The notes under the pieces are model-generated. The model had not been told where the DNA came from and did not search any database. It saw nothing but the letters and a program-made list of their open reading frames with translations. Shown here one piece after another: positions 11,785-60,195 of a stretch of DNA of 64,000 nucleotides. A program made the translations under genes and the position numbers. Location of the stretch: positions 2,215,784 through 2,279,783 of the forward strand of contig NZ_DS999411.1 of assembly GCF_000158175.1 (NCBI RefSeq), in the 5' to 3' direction. The stretch is from Luminiphilus syltensis NOR5-1B. Lineage in GTDB: Bacteria > Pseudomonadota > Gammaproteobacteria > Pseudomonadales > Halieaceae. Each line of letters begins with the position of its first letter. The stretch's first letter is position 1.

Positions 11785-13557
11785 TTATTGCATGGCATCT
11801 GGGAGTTGCCGGCCCGGAACGAGTGTCACGTACTTCCAGTTCAGTGAATCCATGAGATTACCGGGCATACCCTCTACGCTGGGATGAAGCAAATATCGCG
11901 AGTTATAGGTATAGATCGGAATAATCGGCATGGTCTCGATTAGTCGGGTTTCGGCCTCAACAAAGTAGGCATAGCGTACTTCCCTCGTCTTTGCCCTGGG
12001 TGCTTTCTGGCTGACGAGATTGTCAAATATGGGGTCTGCAAAACCTGTGTTGTTATTGCCGCCGCCCGTTAGAAACAGCTCAAGAAAAGTGTTCGGGTCC
12101 ACATAGTCGCCGATCCATCCCCGGCGGGCAATCTGGTAATCCCCGGTCTTCACCGAATCTGAGTAGACCTTCCATTCCTGGTTGGTGAGGGTGACCGTAA
12201 CGCCCAGATGCTTCTTCCACATCTGCTGAATGGCGATGGCAATTTTTCGGTGAGCCTCATGGGTGTTGTAGAGAATCTCGAGTCCGGGCCAGCCTTCCCC
12301 GCCGGGGTAGCCCGCCTCGGCCAGGAGTTCGCGCGCAGCTGCGGGATCAAAGGTAAAGAGCTGTGGCGGTTGGTAGCCCAGCGTGCCCGGTGGGACCATG
12401 CTATAGGCTGGGGTAACAATGCTCTGCATGACGGACCGGGTGAGTAACTCCCGGTCGACGGCCATCGACAGTGCCCGGCGTACCCGTGGGTCATCGACCG
12501 GAGATTTGTCGATGTTCACGAGATAGTAGTAGGTTCCGATGTAAGGGTCCTGATGGTAGAGCGTATCGGGCATTTGTCGGTAATCAGGGACCTTGTCGAG
12601 GGGCACCTCGTAAGTGCGGTGTACCTGACCGACGCGGAACATGCGTTCTTCCAGCGTTTGGTTGTCAATCGGGTGATACACAATTCCGTTTAGCGATACG
12701 TTCTCGCGATCCCAATACGTGTCATTTTTGCGCACTTTGATAAACCGGTTCATGGCCCAGTCATCCAGATTAAAGGCACCGTTGCCGATAAGGTTTCCCG
12801 GACGGGTCCAGGCGGTAAATCGGTCGGTCATTTCGCCGAACTGAAGCAGGGTTTCCGGGTGGACTGCGTACGCGGCGTAATGGTCCATCAGTTGCAGGAA
12901 GTAGGGCGTTGGTGCCTCAAGGGTGACTTCTAGGGTGGACTCGTCAAGTGCTGCGATGCCCACCGCCGTAAAGTCTTTGAGTTCACCTTTGGCATAGCGC
13001 TCGGCGTTTTTGACCGGGTAGAGCATGTAGGCATTGCGATTGCCCGTCTCGGGGTGGAGGGCGCGATTCCAACTCCAGATAAAATCACTGGCGTTTATGA
13101 CCTCGCCGTTGGACCACCGAGCCTCAGGGTTCAGGTGGAAGGTGTAAACCAGGCCGTCATCGCTAATCGTCCACCGCTGGGCGACACCGGGTTCGGGTTC
13201 AAGCGTGTAGGGGTTCTTTACGACCAGCCCCTCGAACAGCGAACGGAGGATACGGTTTTCCGGGACCCCTGTGACCGCGTGTGGATCCAAACCCTGGGGT
13301 TCAGCGGCATTGGCCAAATGAAAGATACCGTCGCGATTGCCACTGTCGACATTGGACTCACCCCCGCCACAGCCTGTGGTTATCAGTAACGCGGACAGTG
13401 CCAGTGTTCCGACTGCCCATGCGGTTTGTCGATACCGCGTGGCCAGTGTCTCAACCCAACCGCGGGTTGTTGCGGCGGTGCTCGGGTCAGTGGCCAGCGA
13501 AAACCAGGGGTTTCTGGATGTTGCGCTACCGGGTGCTGCGGCCATGGTTTGTTTCAC
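11785..13557 (-). CDS. Oligopeptide-binding lipoprotein, second of a tandem pair (OppA/MppA-type)
   Basis: Solute-binding protein of the SBP_bac_5 family, 590 residues, closest in style to OppA/MppA. A lipobox is visible in LLITTGCGGG (about 58-67), so the mature protein should be anchored by a lipid. Family motifs include GLDPHAVTGVPENRILRSLFEGL, EPEPGVAQRW and HLNPEARWSNGE. The N-terminal extension of about 40 residues before the signal helix is unusual, but the start at 13557 overlaps the stop of the upstream paralog by four bases and no ATG or GTG lies nearer the signal. It resembles its upstream neighbour closely along the whole length, as expected of a tandem duplication with divergence. 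Confidence 0.9.
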   Translation of the reverse strand: MKQTMAAAPGSATSRNPWFSLATDPSTAATTRGWVETLATRYRQTAWAVGTLALSALLITTGCGGGESNVDSGNRDGIFHLANAAEPQGLDPHAVTGVPENRILRSLFEGLVVKNPYTLEPEPGVAQRWTISDDGLVYTFHLNPEARWSNGEVINASDFIWSWNRALHPETGNRNAYMLYPVKNAERYAKGELKDFTAVGIAALDESTLEVTLEAPTPYFLQLMDHYAAYAVHPETLLQFGEMTDRFTAWTRPGNLIGNGAFNLDDWAMNRFIKVRKNDTYWDRENVSLNGIVYHPIDNQTLEERMFRVGQVHRTYEVPLDKVPDYRQMPDTLYHQDPYIGTYYYLVNIDKSPVDDPRVRRALSMAVDRELLTRSVMQSIVTPAYSMVPPGTLGYQPPQLFTFDPAAARELLAEAGYPGGEGWPGLEILYNTHEAHRKIAIAIQQMWKKHLGVTVTLTNQEWKVYSDSVKTGDYQIARRGWIGDYVDPNTFLELFLTGGGNNNTGFADPIFDNLVSQKAPRAKTREVRYAYFVEAETRLIETMPIIPIYTYNSRYLLHPSVEGMPGNLMDSLNWKYVTLVPGRQLPDAMQ

Positions 13558-15212
13558 CGTATGCTGTCGGGGAGTGTTCGGCCGGGCACCAGCTCGGCGT
13601 ATTTCAGATTAATCGACTGCGTCACGTTGAGAGGCATACCCTCAACGCTGGGATGTTGCAGTAGGCGAGTGGTATAGGAATAGATGGGAATGATCGGCAT
13701 GGCATCCATAAGCAGCGCTTCCGCCTGTTGCATATACCTGTAGCGCTCTTCACGGGTAACCGACTGACCGCCTTTGCTGATCAGTAGGTCGTCGAAGCGC
13801 GGATCCGAATAGCCCGAATCATTATTGCCGCCATCGGTTAAGAACAGCTCCAGAAAGCTCGACGGATACACATCACCAATCCAGCCCATTCGCGCCACCT
13901 GATAATCCTTTTGGTTGACCGTTTCCACGTAGACTTTCCATTCCTGATTGGCGAGGGTGATTTCAACACCAAGGTTTTTTTTCCACATTTGCTGGATGGC
14001 GATGGCTATCTTGCGATGTGCTTCGCTGGTGTTGTAGGTGATCTCGAGGCCAGGCCAGCCCTCACCGTCGGGGTAGCCGGCCTCAGCGAGTAGTTCTCTA
14101 GCCCGCTCCGGGTTGAAAGCAAAGGGTGCAGGCGGCGTGTAATGGGGAATAAAGGGTGGCACGACGCCATAAGCGGGGATGACAGAGTCGTACATGATTG
14201 TTCGCGCGATCTTTTCCCGATCCACTGCCAGCGCGAGCGCCTTGCGCACTCTTACATCATCGGTGGGCGCGCGAAGATTGTTCACGACATAAAAATAAGA
14301 ACCAAGATAGGGAGCGGTTCTGAAGGGCGTATCGGGCATCGTCGAGTAGGCAGGAATTTTATCCAGCGGCAGGGTGAAGGTGCGATGCAGTTGGTCTACC
14401 CGAAACATGCGTTCCTCGATGTTATCGTCTTCGATAGGGTAGAAGACCACACCGTTAAGACTGACCTTGTCCCGATCCCAGTAGGTGGGGCTCTTACCGA
14501 CCTTGATATAACGGTTCATCGCCCACTCCTCCAGAATGAAGGGCCCGTTACCAACGAAATTTTCGGGACGCGTCCACTGGGTAAAGCGGTCGGTCATCTC
14601 ACCGTGTTTGAGTATCGTCTCCGGGTGCAGCGCATAGGAGGAATGGTGCATCAACTGAACAAGAAAGTGGGGTGTGGGGCCACGCAGGGTGACTTGCAGG
14701 ATGGCTTCTTCGAGCGCTTTAACCCCGACTTCGCCAAAGTCATCAATGGCACCTGTGGCGAACGCCTCAGCGTTATCAATTACGTAAAGCAGGTAGGCGT
14801 TTCGATTGCCGGTCTTGGGGTGCAGGGCGCGTTTCCAGGTCCAGACATAGTCGCTGGCGGTGATGGGTTCGCCGTTAGACCAGACGGCTTTTGGATTGAT
14901 ATGAAAGGTATAGATCAGGCCGTCCGTACTGATCTCCCAGCGCTCGGCCACCCCAGGCTCGGGTTCGAGCGTCCACGGGTTGCGTGTGACCAATCCTTCG
15001 AACAGAGCGCCGAGAATGCGTGAAGCGTCGGTGGTGGTGACGACGTGGGGATCGAGCCCTGTCGGCTCTGAGGCATTACCCAGATGAAGAATACCCTCGC
15101 GATTGCCGATGACCACGTTGCTCTCGCCAACACCACAGCCCACCAGTGAAACGACTATCAGTGCCGACACACCGGCGAGAAGGTGCGTGCATTTACGGTA
15201 GGTATGCTTCAT
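13554..15212 (-). CDS. Oligopeptide-binding lipoprotein, first of a tandem pair (OppA/MppA-type)
   Basis: First gene of the peptide-transport operon, 552 residues. The signal peptide ends in VVSLVGCGVG, a clear lipobox (Cys about 26). The mature part has GLDPHVVTTTDASRILGALFEGL, EPEPGVAERW and WSNGEPITASDYVW, typical of OppA-like peptide receptors. It shares most of these blocks with the next gene, so the importer has two receptors, probably with different peptide preferences. The promoter should lie between 15212 and the divergent gltX at 15379; no operator was recognised there. Confidence 0.9.
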   Translation of the reverse strand: MKHTYRKCTHLLAGVSALIVVSLVGCGVGESNVVIGNREGILHLGNASEPTGLDPHVVTTTDASRILGALFEGLVTRNPWTLEPEPGVAERWEISTDGLIYTFHINPKAVWSNGEPITASDYVWTWKRALHPKTGNRNAYLLYVIDNAEAFATGAIDDFGEVGVKALEEAILQVTLRGPTPHFLVQLMHHSSYALHPETILKHGEMTDRFTQWTRPENFVGNGPFILEEWAMNRYIKVGKSPTYWDRDKVSLNGVVFYPIEDDNIEERMFRVDQLHRTFTLPLDKIPAYSTMPDTPFRTAPYLGSYFYVVNNLRAPTDDVRVRKALALAVDREKIARTIMYDSVIPAYGVVPPFIPHYTPPAPFAFNPERARELLAEAGYPDGEGWPGLEITYNTSEAHRKIAIAIQQMWKKNLGVEITLANQEWKVYVETVNQKDYQVARMGWIGDVYPSSFLELFLTDGGNNDSGYSDPRFDDLLISKGGQSVTREERYRYMQQAEALLMDAMPIIPIYSYTTRLLQHPSVEGMPLNVTQSINLKYAELVPGRTLPDSIR

Positions 15213-47683: not shown

Positions 47684-48103
47684 TCAGCTATCGACCTGAT
47701 ACTGCTCCCACAGGCGTGTTCGCTCCCGCAGGGGATCGGTCAGCACATTTTCGCGTGCGCTATGGACCTCCCTCGCCGTGATCGGTGCAAAGTCGCTCGA
47801 TAGGTTCGGGGCGTTCAGTTCGGTCAGGATATAGTTGAGAACGTCGGCGAGTTCGGCATCACTGATTGGCGCCTGGGAGGACCCAGGTACACGAGCGAGA
47901 TAAGCCCTTCCATCGCTGAAGTCAGTGATCTGTGTGATCTCTCCAATCAGCGTCGGTACTTCTGGCGGTGAGCCCTGTCCATCCGCCAAATGACAGCCCG
48001 CACAATGCAGGAGATAGTTGAATCGTGCTTTGTCGGCCCACGCGGTCGATCCAAGCAGGAAAAGTAGTGCGAACACTGCGCCGCGACACAACGGTTTTCC
48101 CAT
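47684..48103 (-). CDS. Small periplasmic c-type cytochrome without methionine ligand
   Basis: A 139-residue protein with a signal peptide (about 1-23, ending AWAD) and one heme site C34-A-G-C37-H38. In class I cytochromes a distal methionine completes the iron coordination, but the only Met in this protein is residue 1. Possible distal ligands are H33, H114 or a lysine, or the site may be five-coordinate. It is the last gene of the amine-dehydrogenase-type operon and starts five bases after the small subunit gene. The known Alcaligenes aau cluster also has a small monoheme cytochrome directly after aauA, so an electron-acceptor role for the enzyme is likely. Confidence 0.82.
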   Translation of the reverse strand: MGKPLCRGAVFALLFLLGSTAWADKARFNYLLHCAGCHLADGQGSPPEVPTLIGEITQITDFSDGRAYLARVPGSSQAPISDAELADVLNYILTELNAPNLSSDFAPITAREVHSARENVLTDPLRERTRLWEQYQVDS

Positions 48104-48108
48104 AGCGA

Positions 48109-48666
48109 TCAGTCTATCTCCGCCTCACCCAGAACGAGTGAAACCGTGCAGTGATACGCCTGCGACTCGGTACCGAAGCACCACAGAATATCGTTACTCT
48201 TGGCTGGAAAATAAACGGGTTTGTCGCGTTCGGTACGATGACAAACACACCGTTCACAATAGGATTTACCACAGCAATCGTTATAGGAGATTAAATAGTC
48301 CTTACCATCCGCAGGATTGTGGCAGGTGCCGATCCAGCTGATGGGAGAGGGCTCGGACCCGGGTGGGCAGGTCGTTGCACTACCTCCGCAGCAGGAGCAC
48401 AGTGAGCCTCCGAGTGCACAGTAGCGCCAATAGTCACAACTCTGGGGATCGCCGATTTCCGAGACTGCAGCGAGGTCCTGTGGCGGTTCATTGCCAAAGG
48501 CCCGCCGGACCGGTAGCAGCGGGAAGAAGCTTGCTCCCGCCAACATCAAGCCGAGTTTTCCCAAAAAACTGCGTCGGGAGGTTCGTTGGGCGACGCGACG
48601 TGCCGCCTCACTCATCCGCTGATCGAGTCGTTGAGAAAGTCGGGCCAGATCGAGAGGTTTCGTCAT
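48109..48666 (-). CDS. aauA: Aromatic-amine-dehydrogenase-type small subunit (TTQ-bearing)
   Basis: The catalytic subunit of a quinoprotein amine dehydrogenase, which oxidises primary amines to aldehydes and ammonia in the periplasm. A long Tat signal holds SRRSFLG (31-37). The mature part has all key residues: W111 (SPISWIGTC) and W162 (DILWCFG), which form the tryptophan tryptophylquinone cofactor, and catalytic base D130 (YNDCCG). The cysteine-rich core (CDYWRYCA, CSCCGG, CCGKSYCERC) and the PSPISWIGTCHNP block match my recollection of the Alcaligenes aromatic amine dehydrogenase better than the Paracoccus methylamine enzyme, which has CSGG and different residues there. The C-terminal NDILWCFG is closer to the latter. 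Confidence 0.88.
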   Translation of the reverse strand: MTKPLDLARLSQRLDQRMSEAARRVAQRTSRRSFLGKLGLMLAGASFFPLLPVRRAFGNEPPQDLAAVSEIGDPQSCDYWRYCALGGSLCSCCGGSATTCPPGSEPSPISWIGTCHNPADGKDYLISYNDCCGKSYCERCVCHRTERDKPVYFPAKSNDILWCFGTESQAYHCTVSLVLGEAEID

Positions 48667-48670
48667 TTAA

Positions 48671-49321
48671 TCACCCTGTGTGTTGTTCAGAGACTGTTGT
48701 GTGCGGTTCAAAAACTTCAGGCTCATCGGGATGGTTGATGGCCATGTAGTCCTGAATTGAGTCGATACCGGTTCGCATCGCCTCGAGTAAGCTTTCGAGA
48801 TGCTCGCGGGTATTCACAAGGCCCTTGGCGGCGAGGGCGCCCTGGTCGTCAATTAAGACCGCAAAAGGCAGCTTGCTGACCGCAAAACCAATTCCCAGGG
48901 GTTGGGAAACCACGTAAGGGTAGCGTTCGATACCGAGCTTTTGCGCGTAAGCCTGGTGTGCACTGATATCAGCGCCATCGCTGGCAAAAATCAGGTCAAA
49001 ATTATCTTCCCGGGCAACGGCTCGCGCCACTGGCACCAGCGCTTTGCAAACCGGGCAGGTGGGTGAAATGAACAGGAGCATTTGCTTTGTCGCTCGCGTC
49101 GTATCACCGATAGTTACCCGTTGGTTGTCGATGGTGTCGTAAGTTGCTGCCTCCACGCGCTCCCCGATTTTCGGACCGTTTGTCGGCGTTAGCGCCCCCG
49201 CCGGTGCGATTCGCTCGTGCAGGAGACCAATTTGTCGGGTCAGTGCGAGTACCAGAATACCCAGGCCAAGAACCGCCAGCCAGAGAATGATGTGAGATAT
49301 CCAAAGAAGACTGTCCATCAC
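48671..49321 (-). CDS. aauD: AauD/MauD-type thioredoxin-like maturation protein
   Basis: A 216-residue membrane-anchored protein: one N-terminal helix (HIILWLAVLGLGILVLAL) and a periplasmic thioredoxin-like domain with the active-site motif C89-P-V-C92 (FISPTCPVCKALVP). MauD and AauD are needed to form the many disulfides of the small subunit. Its start overlaps the aauE-type gene end by four bases, and the small subunit gene follows four bases after its stop. Order and spacing match known mau and aau operons. Confidence 0.9.
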   Translation of the reverse strand: MMDSLLWISHIILWLAVLGLGILVLALTRQIGLLHERIAPAGALTPTNGPKIGERVEAATYDTIDNQRVTIGDTTRATKQMLLFISPTCPVCKALVPVARAVAREDNFDLIFASDGADISAHQAYAQKLGIERYPYVVSQPLGIGFAVSKLPFAVLIDDQGALAAKGLVNTREHLESLLEAMRTGIDSIQDYMAINHPDEPEVFEPHTTVSEQHTG

Positions 49322-49875
49322 GCGCTGCCTCGGCGCCAGTTGGCGAGGCTCATGGCGTTCTTCAGAAGCTGCTGTCCCGCGAGGTAAAACACCACGAGTA
49401 AAAGGGTCGCCCCTGCCGCAACGATGTAATCGAGCCCGCTCAGTGGTCGGTCACCAGGGGCGATCACCACCGTCAGGGCCACTACTGCAAGGGCAAGATT
49501 CCTGACCACCAGGGCAGTTGACAGCCCTCCGGAGGGCGCGAAGCTGCAGCCGCAGTCGATATGGGTGCGGCCTCGCCATAGATTTATCGCCATGCCGGCC
49601 GCATACAGGGTGAGCAAAGCAGCACTCGCAGCCGCAGACCACATCAATAGTGTGGTGCCCTGACTACCGCCCAAGGAGAGCAGCCATCCTCCGGCTATGC
49701 CGAGTTCGAGCAGTGGAAGAGAGACTGCGATCACGGCGAGGGTCCACGGCGGAACAATCTGGTATTCCGACACAATCATTCGAAAAGCGGATAGATTATT
49801 GAGCTTCTCGAGGGCGCCGGAGGCAAACAGTAACGCGAAGGCGATCGATACGATAAGGGGAACTATAGGATCCAC
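49318..49875 (-). CDS. aauE: AauE/MauE-type membrane protein
   Basis: A 185-residue inner-membrane protein with four or five helices and the conserved cysteine motif DCGCSFAPSGG in a loop between helices (about 107-117), as in MauE. MauE works with MauD in maturation of the small subunit, probably passing reducing or oxidising equivalents across the membrane in a DsbD/VKOR-like way. It starts three bases after the large-subunit gene ends. Confidence 0.9.
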   Translation of the reverse strand: MDPIVPLIVSIAFALLFASGALEKLNNLSAFRMIVSEYQIVPPWTLAVIAVSLPLLELGIAGGWLLSLGGSQGTTLLMWSAAASAALLTLYAAGMAINLWRGRTHIDCGCSFAPSGGLSTALVVRNLALAVVALTVVIAPGDRPLSGLDYIVAAGATLLLVVFYLAGQQLLKNAMSLANWRRGSA

Positions 49876-49878
49876 GAT

Positions 49879-50985
49879 CTAAAAACCCTGAAGGATCGCG
49901 GCTTCCTCGCCGGGTTCCTCGATCCGCCGAATCAATTTCAGTGTCATCGCATCGTAAATATCGATCTGGTTATTGATGTCGGAGGTGATGAGTAACGGCT
50001 TCTCGTCCTGGGTTAGGTATAGATTCATTACCGGTATCTCCAGAGGCAATCGCGCGATACGGCGCTGGGCCTTAAGATCGAACACCCAGATCTCCGTGCC
50101 CGGATCTTCGTGGGTATCGATGTCGCCCTGGTGCATCAGCGTGTAGAAGATGCTTTTGTTGGCTGTGAGCCCCATAATCTGCCAGCCGCCGAGCTTCCAG
50201 TCCTCAGCAGCCTCGGCCGTAGTGACAACCCGCCAGGGTTCTGAAATTTCGATCTGATCGGCCCGCACGTGCACGGTGTAGACCAGGCCCTCAAAGGAGC
50301 TCAGCAACCAGCCATCGCCGAAAGGAAGCACTCGGTCAAAGATCGGATCGTCGTCGATATCAAAAAACGGGCGACTGCGAAAACGAGTGACTTCATTGCC
50401 ATCAGCGTCCAGACGAATTAACTGAAGTCTGCCATCGCCACACAGCTGGAGGAATGCGTTTTCGGGTACCGGCAGCATCATGGCACAGCCGGGGGTCGAA
50501 ATTTCTGCCACAAATTTTTGTGCCTCGACATCGACGATGCTTATCGACTGCGCGGGTGTCAGGTTGAACACCGCGAGATGGCGCTCATCATCCATTAGCG
50601 CCGAGAATTGTCGGTGTGGGAACGCGGCTATTTTGTTGGGCACGGGTATTTCAGCGACTGGCGCCAGGTCCTCGATGCTATAGATCGTCACCACGTCGGT
50701 GCGCTCTCCACGATCGCTACGGGAGTAATAACTTTCAGCGGCGTAAATAACGCCCTTTTCCGGGTGGGGTTCGATGACCGGTGTGTAGGGCGTCAATGTC
50801 AGTCGACCCAGCATCTCGCCGGTGGAGGCGTCGAAAAGATTGGTGCCCCCCATGTACGCTTTGATAAAAACCCAGGTAGGCGTGGGTTCTCCGAGTTTTG
50901 CAACGGAAATGGTTTCGGGTTTGACACCGGCGTGGGCAAGCGATGCCATTAACAGCGCCATCAGAACGGCAAGCCGTTGAATCAT
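49879..50985 (-). CDS. aauB: Amine dehydrogenase large (beta-propeller) subunit
   Basis: A 368-residue secreted protein. The signal MIQRLAVLMALLMASLAHAG is followed by a seven-bladed propeller fold with the family motifs VFIKAYMGGTNLFDAST, YTPVIEPHPEKGVIYAAES, DVVTIYSIEDL and DIDTHEDPGTEIWVFD. The large subunit cups the cofactor-bearing small subunit and shapes the substrate channel. The frame is open 40 codons further upstream, but the ATG at 50985 begins the signal exactly and has GGAGAG before it. It is the first gene of the operon; a palindrome lies about 70 bases upstream. Confidence 0.9.
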   Translation of the reverse strand: MIQRLAVLMALLMASLAHAGVKPETISVAKLGEPTPTWVFIKAYMGGTNLFDASTGEMLGRLTLTPYTPVIEPHPEKGVIYAAESYYSRSDRGERTDVVTIYSIEDLAPVAEIPVPNKIAAFPHRQFSALMDDERHLAVFNLTPAQSISIVDVEAQKFVAEISTPGCAMMLPVPENAFLQLCGDGRLQLIRLDADGNEVTRFRSRPFFDIDDDPIFDRVLPFGDGWLLSSFEGLVYTVHVRADQIEISEPWRVVTTAEAAEDWKLGGWQIMGLTANKSIFYTLMHQGDIDTHEDPGTEIWVFDLKAQRRIARLPLEIPVMNLYLTQDEKPLLITSDINNQIDIYDAMTLKLIRRIEEPGEEAAILQGF

Positions 50986-57690: not shown

Positions 57691-57961
57691 AAACGATGGC
57701 TCCTCCGCTATTGGCATCAGGCTATCACGGCTCGGGCGCGCCGCGGGCGAACCATGGGAGGAAGTATCAGAAGTGGCGATCTCCGCCGTTAATCCACTCG
57801 TAATCTGGTGAGGGTGAGTGTAATTGGCCCATTCGTCACCTGAGCGAGTCTGTGATCGAAGTCCACCGAGCTTTACCATCGGTGCACAGGAGGCAGGTTA
57901 TTCGATGCGGCCGCTGGGTGTGCCGGCTTGCGTCTCAATGTAATCTCCGGTCTTGAAATCC

Positions 57962-59284
57962 ATGTTGTTTTTTGGGGGGTATCGGGTGGGCCAGGTGAAA
58001 CGGTTTGTTCTGACAACAGTGCTTGCGAGTGTGATGTTGCCAGGGTGTGCAGGTCCGCAGGTGCAGCCGCTAATGCCAACGCCCATCGTCTTTTCCGCTC
58101 TGGATTTCAGTCCGTTGGCGCATATTCCTGAAGACCAGCGGTGGACGCCTCGGCGCGTATATTACGCCACCACCCGCCAGAGAACGCAGGATCTCCAGAA
58201 AATTGATTACACCAATAACGAGGCTGACCGAATCTCACTGGGAATGAGTCTCGTCGGTTTCGGGGTGCCACAAATGTCATGGAGCGAATTGAGCAACGCG
58301 TCACGCCAACCTGAACGCGACGGTGACATCGAATTGGCGCTCTCTGGGCTGGTGGAAATAGGCAACTTCGAGGCAGCGACGGCGGAAACACCCGCCATCG
58401 ATGCTGCGGGTGCTTTATCCTGGCTGGCTAACGATATCAACACCTCGATCGATGCCGCTCGCGACAAGGATTTATTGATCTATGTCCATGGCGCCAAGGT
58501 CAATTTTTATAATACCAATGCGTTCGCTGCCCAGCTTGATCACTTTATGGGCAGGGATATGACGTCCCTGGCATTCTCCTGGCCGACTCGACAGAGCATT
58601 TTGGCCTACGGCACCGGTAGTGATGTGCGCAGAGCCTATCGCGCCGCCCCAGCGCTGACGTCGCTGCTTGAAGAGTTGAGTAAAGGGACGACGGCGCGAA
58701 AAATCCATATTGTCTGTTGGAGTGCCGGCGGCCGTGTGGTGACCGCTGCGCTAAAGGAGATGTTTGAAAGACATGCCGGGAACGATGAAGATCTGCGTGA
58801 GAGGTTTCGGTTGGGCACCGTTTATTACGCAGCAGCAGATGTGCCGCAATCGGAGTTTATCGAGGCTTTACCGGCGCTTAACGCACTGACATCGCGAATG
58901 GTTGTAACGGTATCGTCCAAGGACAGCGCATTGGTAATGGCAAAAAGTTTTATGGGTGGTGGATTGCGAATCGGACAACGCGCCAGCGATCTCAGCGAGG
59001 AGCAGATGGGTATTGTGCGCGAGGCCGGTCGGCTTGAAGTGGTGGATGTATCCAGGGACTGGGAGGGCCGGGGATTTGATATCACGGGTCACCGGTACTG
59101 GTTCGACCACCCCTGGGCCAGCAGCGATGTCGTATTGTCCGTGCGCAGCGATTTCTCACCCGCGGAGCGGGGCCTCGCGCCTACCGATCACTCCCTACTC
59201 TGGAGTATTCCTGCTGACTACCCCGAACGGTTGCGCCGCATCCTGACGCGGGAAAATCTAAGCAGCGGTCTGCGCGAACCATGA
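57962..59284 (+). CDS. DUF900-type alpha/beta-hydrolase lipoprotein
   Basis: A protein of 440 residues from the ATG at 57962, with a lipobox in ASVMLPGCAG. A GTG at 57995 would give a more compact lipoprotein signal (MKRFVLTTVLASVMLPGC). The hydrolase core has VYYATTRQRTQD, LLIYVHGAKVNFYNTNAFAAQ and the nucleophile elbow IVCWSAGGR (S with flanking G, variant of G-x-S-x-G), with a C-terminal His in DITGHRYWFDH. DUF900 proteins are serine-hydrolase-like and usually of unknown substrate. It overlaps the next hydrolase gene by four bases. Confidence 0.83.
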   Translation: MLFFGGYRVGQVKRFVLTTVLASVMLPGCAGPQVQPLMPTPIVFSALDFSPLAHIPEDQRWTPRRVYYATTRQRTQDLQKIDYTNNEADRISLGMSLVGFGVPQMSWSELSNASRQPERDGDIELALSGLVEIGNFEAATAETPAIDAAGALSWLANDINTSIDAARDKDLLIYVHGAKVNFYNTNAFAAQLDHFMGRDMTSLAFSWPTRQSILAYGTGSDVRRAYRAAPALTSLLEELSKGTTARKIHIVCWSAGGRVVTAALKEMFERHAGNDEDLRERFRLGTVYYAAADVPQSEFIEALPALNALTSRMVVTVSSKDSALVMAKSFMGGGLRIGQRASDLSEEQMGIVREAGRLEVVDVSRDWEGRGFDITGHRYWFDHPWASSDVVLSVRSDFSPAERGLAPTDHSLLWSIPADYPERLRRILTRENLSSGLREP

Positions 59285-60195
59285 ATCGAAACCCCTTTTC
59301 CCGTGATAACCCGTTCTGTCTGATACTCTGTTTATGGCTGATGGGTGTGGCGGAAATGTCCAGTGCAGGAACCGCGTTGCCGTCCATCTCGATCCCGTTC
59401 CTGACCAATCGCGGGGTACTACAGCAGTCGGATGGGGGTCTTGACTACGGAACACGCATCGATGCGCTTTCAGGGGGGCGCTGCCAGGTCGATTGGGACG
59501 ACAATGCCCCGTCTTCTGCAACCAACGGCCCTGTAGAATCTCTCTCGGTTGAGCGCGTATTGGACCTTATCGATCATCCCGATGCGCGCAACGTCATTGT
59601 TTATGTTCATGGTTATAACGTGAGCCTTGAGCGTGGGTGCAGAGAGGCCGCGACGCTCGCGCACCAGACTGGGTTTGACGGGCGAGTACTTTTGTTTAGC
59701 TGGCCTGCCAGTGATCTGATGGTGACCTACTGGCAGGACGAGGCTATGTTTGCCGCGAGCGTGGCCAGCATCTTCGCTGCCCTCGAGTCGGTCGGCTCGC
59801 GAATCGGGTTTAACAGGCTCAATGTGGTTGCCCACAGTATGGGATCGAGATTGGCCTCCGCAGAGATGAGCAGCAGTTCATTTGGCAAACGACGCCTAAA
59901 CCACCTCGTGCTCGTTGCACCCGATATCGATTCCCGTATTTTTCGCGAGGCGCTACCCGAGCTCCAACAGCGAGCGAGAAAGTTATCGATCCTGGTGAGC
60001 GATTCGGACCGACTGCTTCTTTTATCCCAGATTATAAATCTGGGCGGTCGCCTGGGTCGGGCGAGCGACTTCGATGCGAATGGCGTTGACGTGTTTGATG
60101 TATCTGATTTTGACAGTCTCGGTTTGAGCCAGCACCTCTACCATCTTGAGAGCCCACAGGTGGGTGATGTGCTGCGACAGGTGCTTGACGAATAG
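59281..60195 (+). CDS. DUF900-type alpha/beta hydrolase, second of a pair
   Basis: A 304-residue exported hydrolase with a signal (PFCLILCLWLMGVAEMSSAG, about 11-30). The core is NVIVYVHGYNVSLERGCREAATL and LNVVAHSMGSRLAS, with the nucleophile elbow A-H-S-M-G; DIDSRIF and a late histidine (LSQHLYHLES) complete the picture. It is related to the upstream lipoprotein but lacks a lipobox, so the pair joins one anchored and one soluble periplasmic form. The ATGA overlap indicates translational coupling. Confidence 0.83.
   Translation: MNRNPFSRDNPFCLILCLWLMGVAEMSSAGTALPSISIPFLTNRGVLQQSDGGLDYGTRIDALSGGRCQVDWDDNAPSSATNGPVESLSVERVLDLIDHPDARNVIVYVHGYNVSLERGCREAATLAHQTGFDGRVLLFSWPASDLMVTYWQDEAMFAASVASIFAALESVGSRIGFNRLNVVAHSMGSRLASAEMSSSSFGKRRLNHLVLVAPDIDSRIFREALPELQQRARKLSILVSDSDRLLLLSQIINLGGRLGRASDFDANGVDVFDVSDFDSLGLSQHLYHLESPQVGDVLRQVLDE

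Follow-up and report, generated by a model that had tools for sequence, protein, structure and literature searches.

Methylamine dehydrogenase (MADH) and aromatic amine dehydrogenase (AADH) are the closest described systems to the locus analysed here. Paracoccus MADH is encoded in the mauFBEDACJGMN cluster, and its tryptophan tryptophylquinone (TTQ) cofactor is completed by MauG, a dihaem protein. To our knowledge, how AADH obtains the same cofactor without mau biogenesis genes has been an open question since its cluster was described. The present analysis concerns a 64,000-nucleotide stretch of the Luminiphilus syltensis NOR5-1B genome (the window; G000:C1:2215784-2279783), taken from a 3.26 Mb single-contig assembly that is 99.8% complete. 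The locus at 47684-50985 is a compact run of five genes on the minus strand: aauB, aauE, aauD, aauA and, last, one for a monohaem cytochrome c, with intergenic gaps of 3, -4, 4 and 5 bases. The sequence-only reading of this stretch had given these coordinates and a gene order that begins with the large subunit, E and D and ends with the small subunit and the cytochrome, both of which are correct. We propose that the cytochrome, which has an apparently open haem, helps to make the TTQ of AADH in place of MauG, and put the probability of this at slightly under one half (about 0.48). The proposal was made because the cytochrome has lost its Met-ligand loop, is strictly associated with the enzyme, occurs with it in genomes that have no MauG, and is fused to MauG in one genus.

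The window operon shares with the aauBEDA cluster of Alcaligenes faecalis the B-E-D-A-cytochrome order, the TTQ tryptophans, Asp128, Thr172 and an extra Cys pair; no mau biogenesis genes were found near the former, and none are known near the latter. It differs from A. faecalis AADH in belonging to a separate clade (clade I, described below), with 63% identity in the small-subunit domain and the replacements Asp84 to Gly, Asn159 to Leu and Met162 to Phe. Homologous subunits, MauE/MauD and the TTQ residues are common to the window and Paracoccus MADH, but the window has no match to mauF, amicyanin, mauJ, mauG, mauM or mauN, and both of its subunits fall under the NCBIfam MADH equivalog cut-offs (small, 180.2 against 196.85; large, 126 against 454.45).

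The operon cytochrome and its haem site

The last gene of the operon (47684-48103, minus strand; Pfam Cytochrom_C, 28 bits) encodes a monohaem cytochrome c with a single CxxCH (CAGCH) and no Met-ligand loop. Its only Met is at position 1, and the distal Met ligand of electron-transfer class I cytochromes c is therefore absent. The GR..N segment, where the Met ligand would be expected, is 26 residues long in all 135 operon cytochromes compared and has a consensus of V/I/L/A followed by P (134/135) and G (129/135). In second cytochromes matched near the operons, this segment spans 43-45 residues and contains a Met in 23 of 24 cases, the 24th being short and c4-like. The Met-ligand loop is thus deleted in 135/135 operon cytochromes. 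A swap of the Met for another fixed ligand was considered and rejected, as no column outside CxxCH holds a conserved His, Met, Lys or Cys; some Met occurs within the segment in 55/135 proteins, with no single column showing it in more than 22.

The nearest solved relative is Thermus thermophilus cytochrome c552 (PDB 1c52 and 2fwl; E = 7e-21), with the C-terminal extension included in the match. The alignment to 1c52 is interrupted over chain residues 50-70, which contain the ligand Met69; c552 keeps this loop, whereas the operon cytochrome has it deleted. The invariant Arg108 (mature window numbering) corresponds in the alignment to Arg125 of c552, a residue in contact with the porphyrin in the docking model of PMC10635480. 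The same paper describes a C14A/M69A mutant of c552 with a five-coordinate haem, and two titles in its reference list refer to the conversion of c552 into an artificial peroxidase. Because the Met-ligand loop is deleted, the haem of the operon cytochrome should be five-coordinate, with a distal site open to H2O2 or O2. With this loop gone, the protein would on paper be a natural counterpart of an engineered peroxidase scaffold, and peroxidase-like chemistry may be expected of it. The proposed likeness to MauG lies in TTQ completion by a periplasmic c-type haem with an open distal side, and in three genomes the two proteins are fused. The operon cytochrome differs from MauG in having one haem, a class I fold and about 120 residues, and it is not a CCP_MauG protein (Cytochrom_C is its only Pfam match).

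In all, 389 stretches in genome contigs encode relatives (two search patterns may match one gene), of which 80 were kept; the original picture of AADH as reported from few bacteria, to which the earlier reading referred, is thus out of date. A PF02975 survey of the order, covering 293 genomes, gave 46 small-subunit matches over the cut-off in 37 genomes. A profile of the cytochrome (A3; author-chosen threshold, E<=1e-10) matched in the same 37 enzyme-bearing genomes and in 0/256 others. There are 45 cytochrome copies for the 46 small subunits, and the one that is missing lies at a contig end. The Fisher p value for this association is 8e-48, which is descriptive only, given the relatedness of the genomes and the operon linkage.

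The same association is seen locus by locus. Of the 138 non-redundant non-MADH loci for which downstream sequence exists, 135 have the cytochrome no more than 700 bases from aauA, on the aauA strand in all of these but L075, and the same proximity is seen at 5/5 additional loci. The 10 of 145 loci that have no operon cytochrome comprise four MADH loci, three at contig ends (L027, L178 and L219), and L041, L212 and L214. Among plasmid records, the cytochrome is found in 0/4 MADH plasmids with mauG versus 6/6 AADH plasmids, a comparison that covers the plasmids only and not the chromosomes of those strains. Carriers of the ordinary type are encoded beside the operon at 35 loci, as a second, Met-bearing monohaem cytochrome (23 loci) or a dihaem cytochrome (12 loci). 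Locus L036 has two further loop-deleted cytochromes in tandem, some 9 kb downstream of aauA and close to where the sequence of that locus ends.

MauG in genomes that encode the enzyme

The P. denitrificans mauF, mauG, mauJ, mauM, mauN and amicyanin sequences gave no tblastn match anywhere in the window at E<=1e-3, in a test that recovers the window aauB, aauD and aauA but misses the true aauE, so that weak relatives could escape it. The same queries match two MADH loci used as controls (L193 and L200). The mau genes are present in the comparison MADH loci L192, L193 and L200, and likewise in L194, there without amicyanin. PF03150 also has no match in the window. The absence of mauG, mauF, mauM and mauN asserted by the sequence-only reading is therefore supported, and its remark that something must build the cofactor without mauG holds and becomes sharper. 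The genome as a whole has a single PF03150 match.

This protein, encoded at C1:35068, far from the operon, raises the possibility that TTQ is formed by an unlinked MauG- or MbnH-like dihaem protein, or by another unlinked enzyme, with only a minor role for the cytochrome. We regard this as improbable. The protein carries a Tyr at the site of MauG Tyr294, and 38/52 enzyme-bearing genomes hold some PF03150 member. The Tyr is not diagnostic, however, being found in 17/18 aligned members, and the protein lies outside the clade of the Paracoccus and operon MauGs. It was rejected as an obvious maturase, scoring higher with NCBIfam MbnH (182 bits) than with MauG (169 bits) and under the cut-off of both. 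The MauG model is an unreliable yardstick, however: even the MauG of P. denitrificans reaches only 97, where 444 would be required.

The distribution of PF03150 also argues against a general unlinked maturase of the MauG or MbnH type, while an unlinked enzyme of some other family is still conceivable. No match (E<=0.001) was found in 12/37 enzyme-bearing genomes of the order and 2/15 further genomes, 14/52 in total, three of which are single contigs (G083, G163 and G171); in G106 and G150 the matches are only partial. The search recovered MauG beside the enzyme in G041, G144, G164, G184, G098 and G203, which served as controls. In 13 of the 14 MauG-free genomes the enzyme lies outside clade I. 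CCP_MauG proteins are not enriched over the background, occurring in 87/133 genomes without the enzyme versus 15/22 with it (our own tally, the 155 genomes being taken as G000-G154).

In a few lineages the operon cytochrome and MauG are physically linked. In three genomes of one genus (G164, G098 and G203, the last a single contig; loci L168, L172 and L173), the two form one open frame with the cytochrome N-terminal, CCP_MauG C-terminal and three CxxCH motifs. At L058, L166, L167 and L169, MauG is the gene directly after the cytochrome. These seven MauGs group with those of P. denitrificans and P. yeei (SH-aLRT 100) and keep Tyr294, Pro107 and Glu113, with Trp93 in 6/7, all four being residues with functional roles in MauG. 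In the small-subunit tree, the seven MauG-linked operons cluster together as a single branch inside clade I. On this tree, MauG was probably captured late, by an operon that already held the cytochrome.

The MauGs of MADH operons are themselves split in the CCP/MauG tree, with L192/L200 and L193/L194 in two places, as if swapped, and MauG from the MADH systems of Methylobacterium and Indioceanicola lies elsewhere than Paracoccus MauG. Given this scatter, earlier exchanges of the dihaem maturase are conceivable.

The main rival explanation is that AADH passes its electrons to this cytochrome as a dedicated acceptor, whose haem iron has either no sixth ligand or an unusual one, and that TTQ is made otherwise. 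Such an acceptor fits the one-to-one association and the operon position equally well, and its nearest solved relative, c552, is an electron carrier. It fits less easily with the deletion of the Met loop in every operon cytochrome with no conserved residue in its place, with the ordinary carriers encoded beside it at 35 loci, and with the fusion to MauG. In addition, A. faecalis AADH has reportedly been crystallised with azurin as its electron partner; PDB entries 2h47 and 2iaa are listed for the AADH heavy chain. Overall, the acceptor role appears unlikely, while being the most serious of the competing explanations.

Several observations weigh against a TTQ-forming role for the cytochrome. 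It is retained at loci where MauG is a neighbour or a fusion partner, and no second cytochrome was found by profile search beside 100/135 operons, that of the window included; both facts favour an electron acceptor. Operon linkage alone favours co-inheritance, and an obligate acceptor would be just as strictly associated. Genuine exceptions, with no adjacent copy, are L212, L214 and L041 (917 bases downstream). The A3 survey scored at most 15 first-look candidates per genome, and some rows of the profile derive from the surveyed genomes. Among the 14 MauG-free genomes, a clade I enzyme is found only in G271, and MauG-type help through the C1:35068 protein is conceivable in the window genome itself. 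Finally, we know of no precedent for a lone haem with MauG-like long-range chemistry. The retention of the cytochrome beside MauG suggests that it does something that MauG does not replace, speculatively a separate step, possibly the first hydroxylation.

The proposed pathway runs as follows. AauB and AauA form a periplasmic TTQ amine dehydrogenase of AADH clade I, in which AauE and AauD would set the disulfides of the small subunit, their roles being those of the known mau system. The last gene of the operon encodes not an ordinary electron carrier but a c552-type cytochrome minus its Met-ligand loop. This open-haem protein would bind the unfinished dehydrogenase and provide a high-valent haem oxidant for Trp hydroxylation, Trp-Trp cross-linking or both, as MauG does for MADH. 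The finished enzyme would oxidise primary amines to aldehyde and ammonia, its electrons leaving through a soluble carrier.

Placement of the enzyme and its active site

The large subunit, AauB (49879-50985, minus strand; Pfam Me-amine-dh_H, 122 bits), has an open frame that extends to 51105, with the Met at 50985 beginning an apparent signal peptide. A PDB search with this subunit returned AADH as the best match (4e-44), followed by MADH (2e-30). With the TTQ-bearing small subunit, AauA (48109-48666, minus strand; Pfam Me-amine-dh_L, 176 bits), a precursor-length MADH chain came first (6e-51, leader included) and AADH second (9e-48); over the mature domain, identity is 63% to AADH versus 53-57% to MADH.

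Trees were built from the 80 relatives, the 46 order matches, 15 further genomes of the class and phylum and 10 plasmid records. Near-identical small subunits (L062, L203, L170, L028, L156, L157, L153, L047 and L165) and the degenerate L220 were removed before counting, and L178 and L219 were also kept out of the trees; L179 has no small-subunit match, and G089, G485 and G509, with weak or degenerate matches only, were not counted as enzyme-bearing. The small-subunit tree (144 rows) separates the non-MADH sequences from four MADH rows (SH-aLRT 99) and contains clade I, with 58 rows, the window among them (SH-aLRT 87); the alignment is short, at 116 columns, and many forks are weak. The large-subunit tree (135 rows) recovers clade I, window included, with 54 rows and SH-aLRT 100. 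The remaining 82 non-MADH rows of the small-subunit tree are referred to here as clade II, or other AADHs (L150, L163 and L177 are basal among them), and these include A. faecalis AADH, on a long branch (0.7), and the window genome's own paralogue.

The assignment of the operon to the AADH type is supported by these trees, in which both subunits fall outside MADH. The idea that it represents a clade intermediate between MADH and AADH was rejected on the basis of the two trees, which place the window beside other AADHs, and of a comparison with the second AADH copy of the genome. The similarity behind that idea is real in part: over the C-terminal half of the small subunit, identity to MADH (52-56%) exceeds that to A. 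faecalis AADH (42%), yet the second AADH of the same genome is just as similar (56%). The likeness to MADH is apparent mainly in comparison with the long-branch A. faecalis sequence. A distinct clade, which may have its own substrates, was correctly anticipated. Judged from the trees, the window operon is of the AADH type, and clade I is a large gammaproteobacterial sister subfamily of the known AADHs, apparently without a characterised member. The window was assigned to this sister subfamily because the Asp84 position is Gly there and Ser or Gly in all clade I rows.

AauA carries TTQ Trp111 and Trp162, the catalytic Asp130 and Thr174, and its sequence contains 14 Cys, counted from residue 61 onward. 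The extra AADH Cys pair (91/135 in AADH numbering) is present and was found in 1/4 MADH rows, in agreement with the earlier identification of both cofactor tryptophans, the catalytic Asp and the AADH-type cysteines. The loss of the second active-site Asp had been overlooked. AauA Gly86 occupies the position of AADH Asp84, which we equate with MADH Asp32 from the alignment and the residue numbering. This position is Ser or Gly in 58/58 clade I rows, and Asp in 80/82 other AADH and 4/4 MADH rows. In AADH numbering, residue 159 is Leu in 53/58 and residue 162 is Phe in 58/58 clade I rows. Asp128, the equivalent of MADH Asp76, is kept in clade I and, like both TTQ tryptophans, is constant across all 144 rows; Thr172 is invariant in the 58 clade I rows.

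A 2005 study of MADH reportedly found that Asp32 and Asp76 variants were each impaired in TTQ formation. The loss of Asp32/84 could mean that clade I, the window included, is not a usual amine dehydrogenase and has altered or no TTQ chemistry. PMC7876137 describes the first hydroxylation in tryptophylquinone biogenesis as thought to be autocatalytic, with an Asp near the cofactor implicated; the same discussion notes evidence against such a role in one oxidase, and cites a 2005 JBC paper whose title describes Asp residues in the MADH active site as critical to the biogenesis of TTQ. This explanation is at odds with the invariance of both TTQ tryptophans, Asp128 and Thr172 across clade I and with the retention of the accessory genes in the window, and we consider it very improbable. 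A broader form of the cytochrome proposal is more plausible, if tentative: the single-haem, loop-deleted cytochrome would be a general TTQ-forming partner of AADH-type enzymes, independent of MauG and later fused once to a captured MauG, and clade I would form TTQ without the second Asp.

Operon surroundings and significance

The two remaining operon genes encode a MauE-family membrane protein, AauE (49318-49875, minus strand; Pfam MauE, 70 bits), with Cys108 and Cys110, and a MauD-type thioredoxin-fold factor, AauD (48671-49321, minus strand), with CPVC at 89. AauD scores 188.6 bits with NCBIfam MauD, exactly the cut-off, and is thioredoxin-like but under the Pfam cut-off. AauE is presumed to be its redox partner. 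On its downstream side the operon borders a gene for a TonB-dependent receptor; a carboxymuconolactone-decarboxylase-family protein is encoded upstream. No other conserved neighbour stood out: across the 82 loci compared, no family besides B/E/D/A/cytochrome is present at more than 14.

The source genome also contains a second, ordinary aau cluster (C1:3002500-3022400; L003), which had been overlooked. It comprises an aldehyde dehydrogenase, aauBEDA, the cytochrome, a dihaem cytochrome and an AraC-family regulator. Nearby are paaA, paaC and paaD, over their NCBIfam cut-offs, and paaE, slightly under (408 against 421). This cluster looks like a standard phenylethylamine-to-phenylacetate pathway. 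The window operon, unlike L003, has no paa-type neighbours and no aldehyde dehydrogenase among its five scanned neighbouring products. An L003-like aldehyde dehydrogenase lies within three genes on either side at 17/129 loci, 1/54 in clade I and 16/75 outside it.

Multiple copies occur elsewhere too: G007 has four TTQ dehydrogenase small-subunit genes (L160, L163, L176 and L177), and G744 has three (L212-L214), two of them without an adjacent cytochrome. Queried with the A. faecalis small subunit, 7/394 genomes of one family of the phylum gave matches, the best at 64% identity and so not from that organism. Elsewhere in the window, two similar, adjacent oligopeptide-type solute-binding proteins lie next to one ABC transporter set (11785-15212), and two adjacent paralogues, one family by clustering and hydrolase-like by reading of their frames, are found at 57953-60195.

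Searches of the open-access literature, with subscription papers outside their scope, listed no report of an AADH subfamily without Asp84, of MauG-free AADH genomes, or of the operon cytochrome as a TTQ-forming candidate. The analysis defines a widespread AADH subfamily without an active-site residue common to other AADHs and to MADH, and this subfamily is a natural test of the residues required for TTQ to form. It also documents AADH-bearing genomes without any member of the MauG family, and puts forward a single small gene, strictly associated with the enzyme, as a candidate for the missing function. If this candidate is correct, the operon cytochrome would represent a second, simpler solution to tryptophylquinone biosynthesis.

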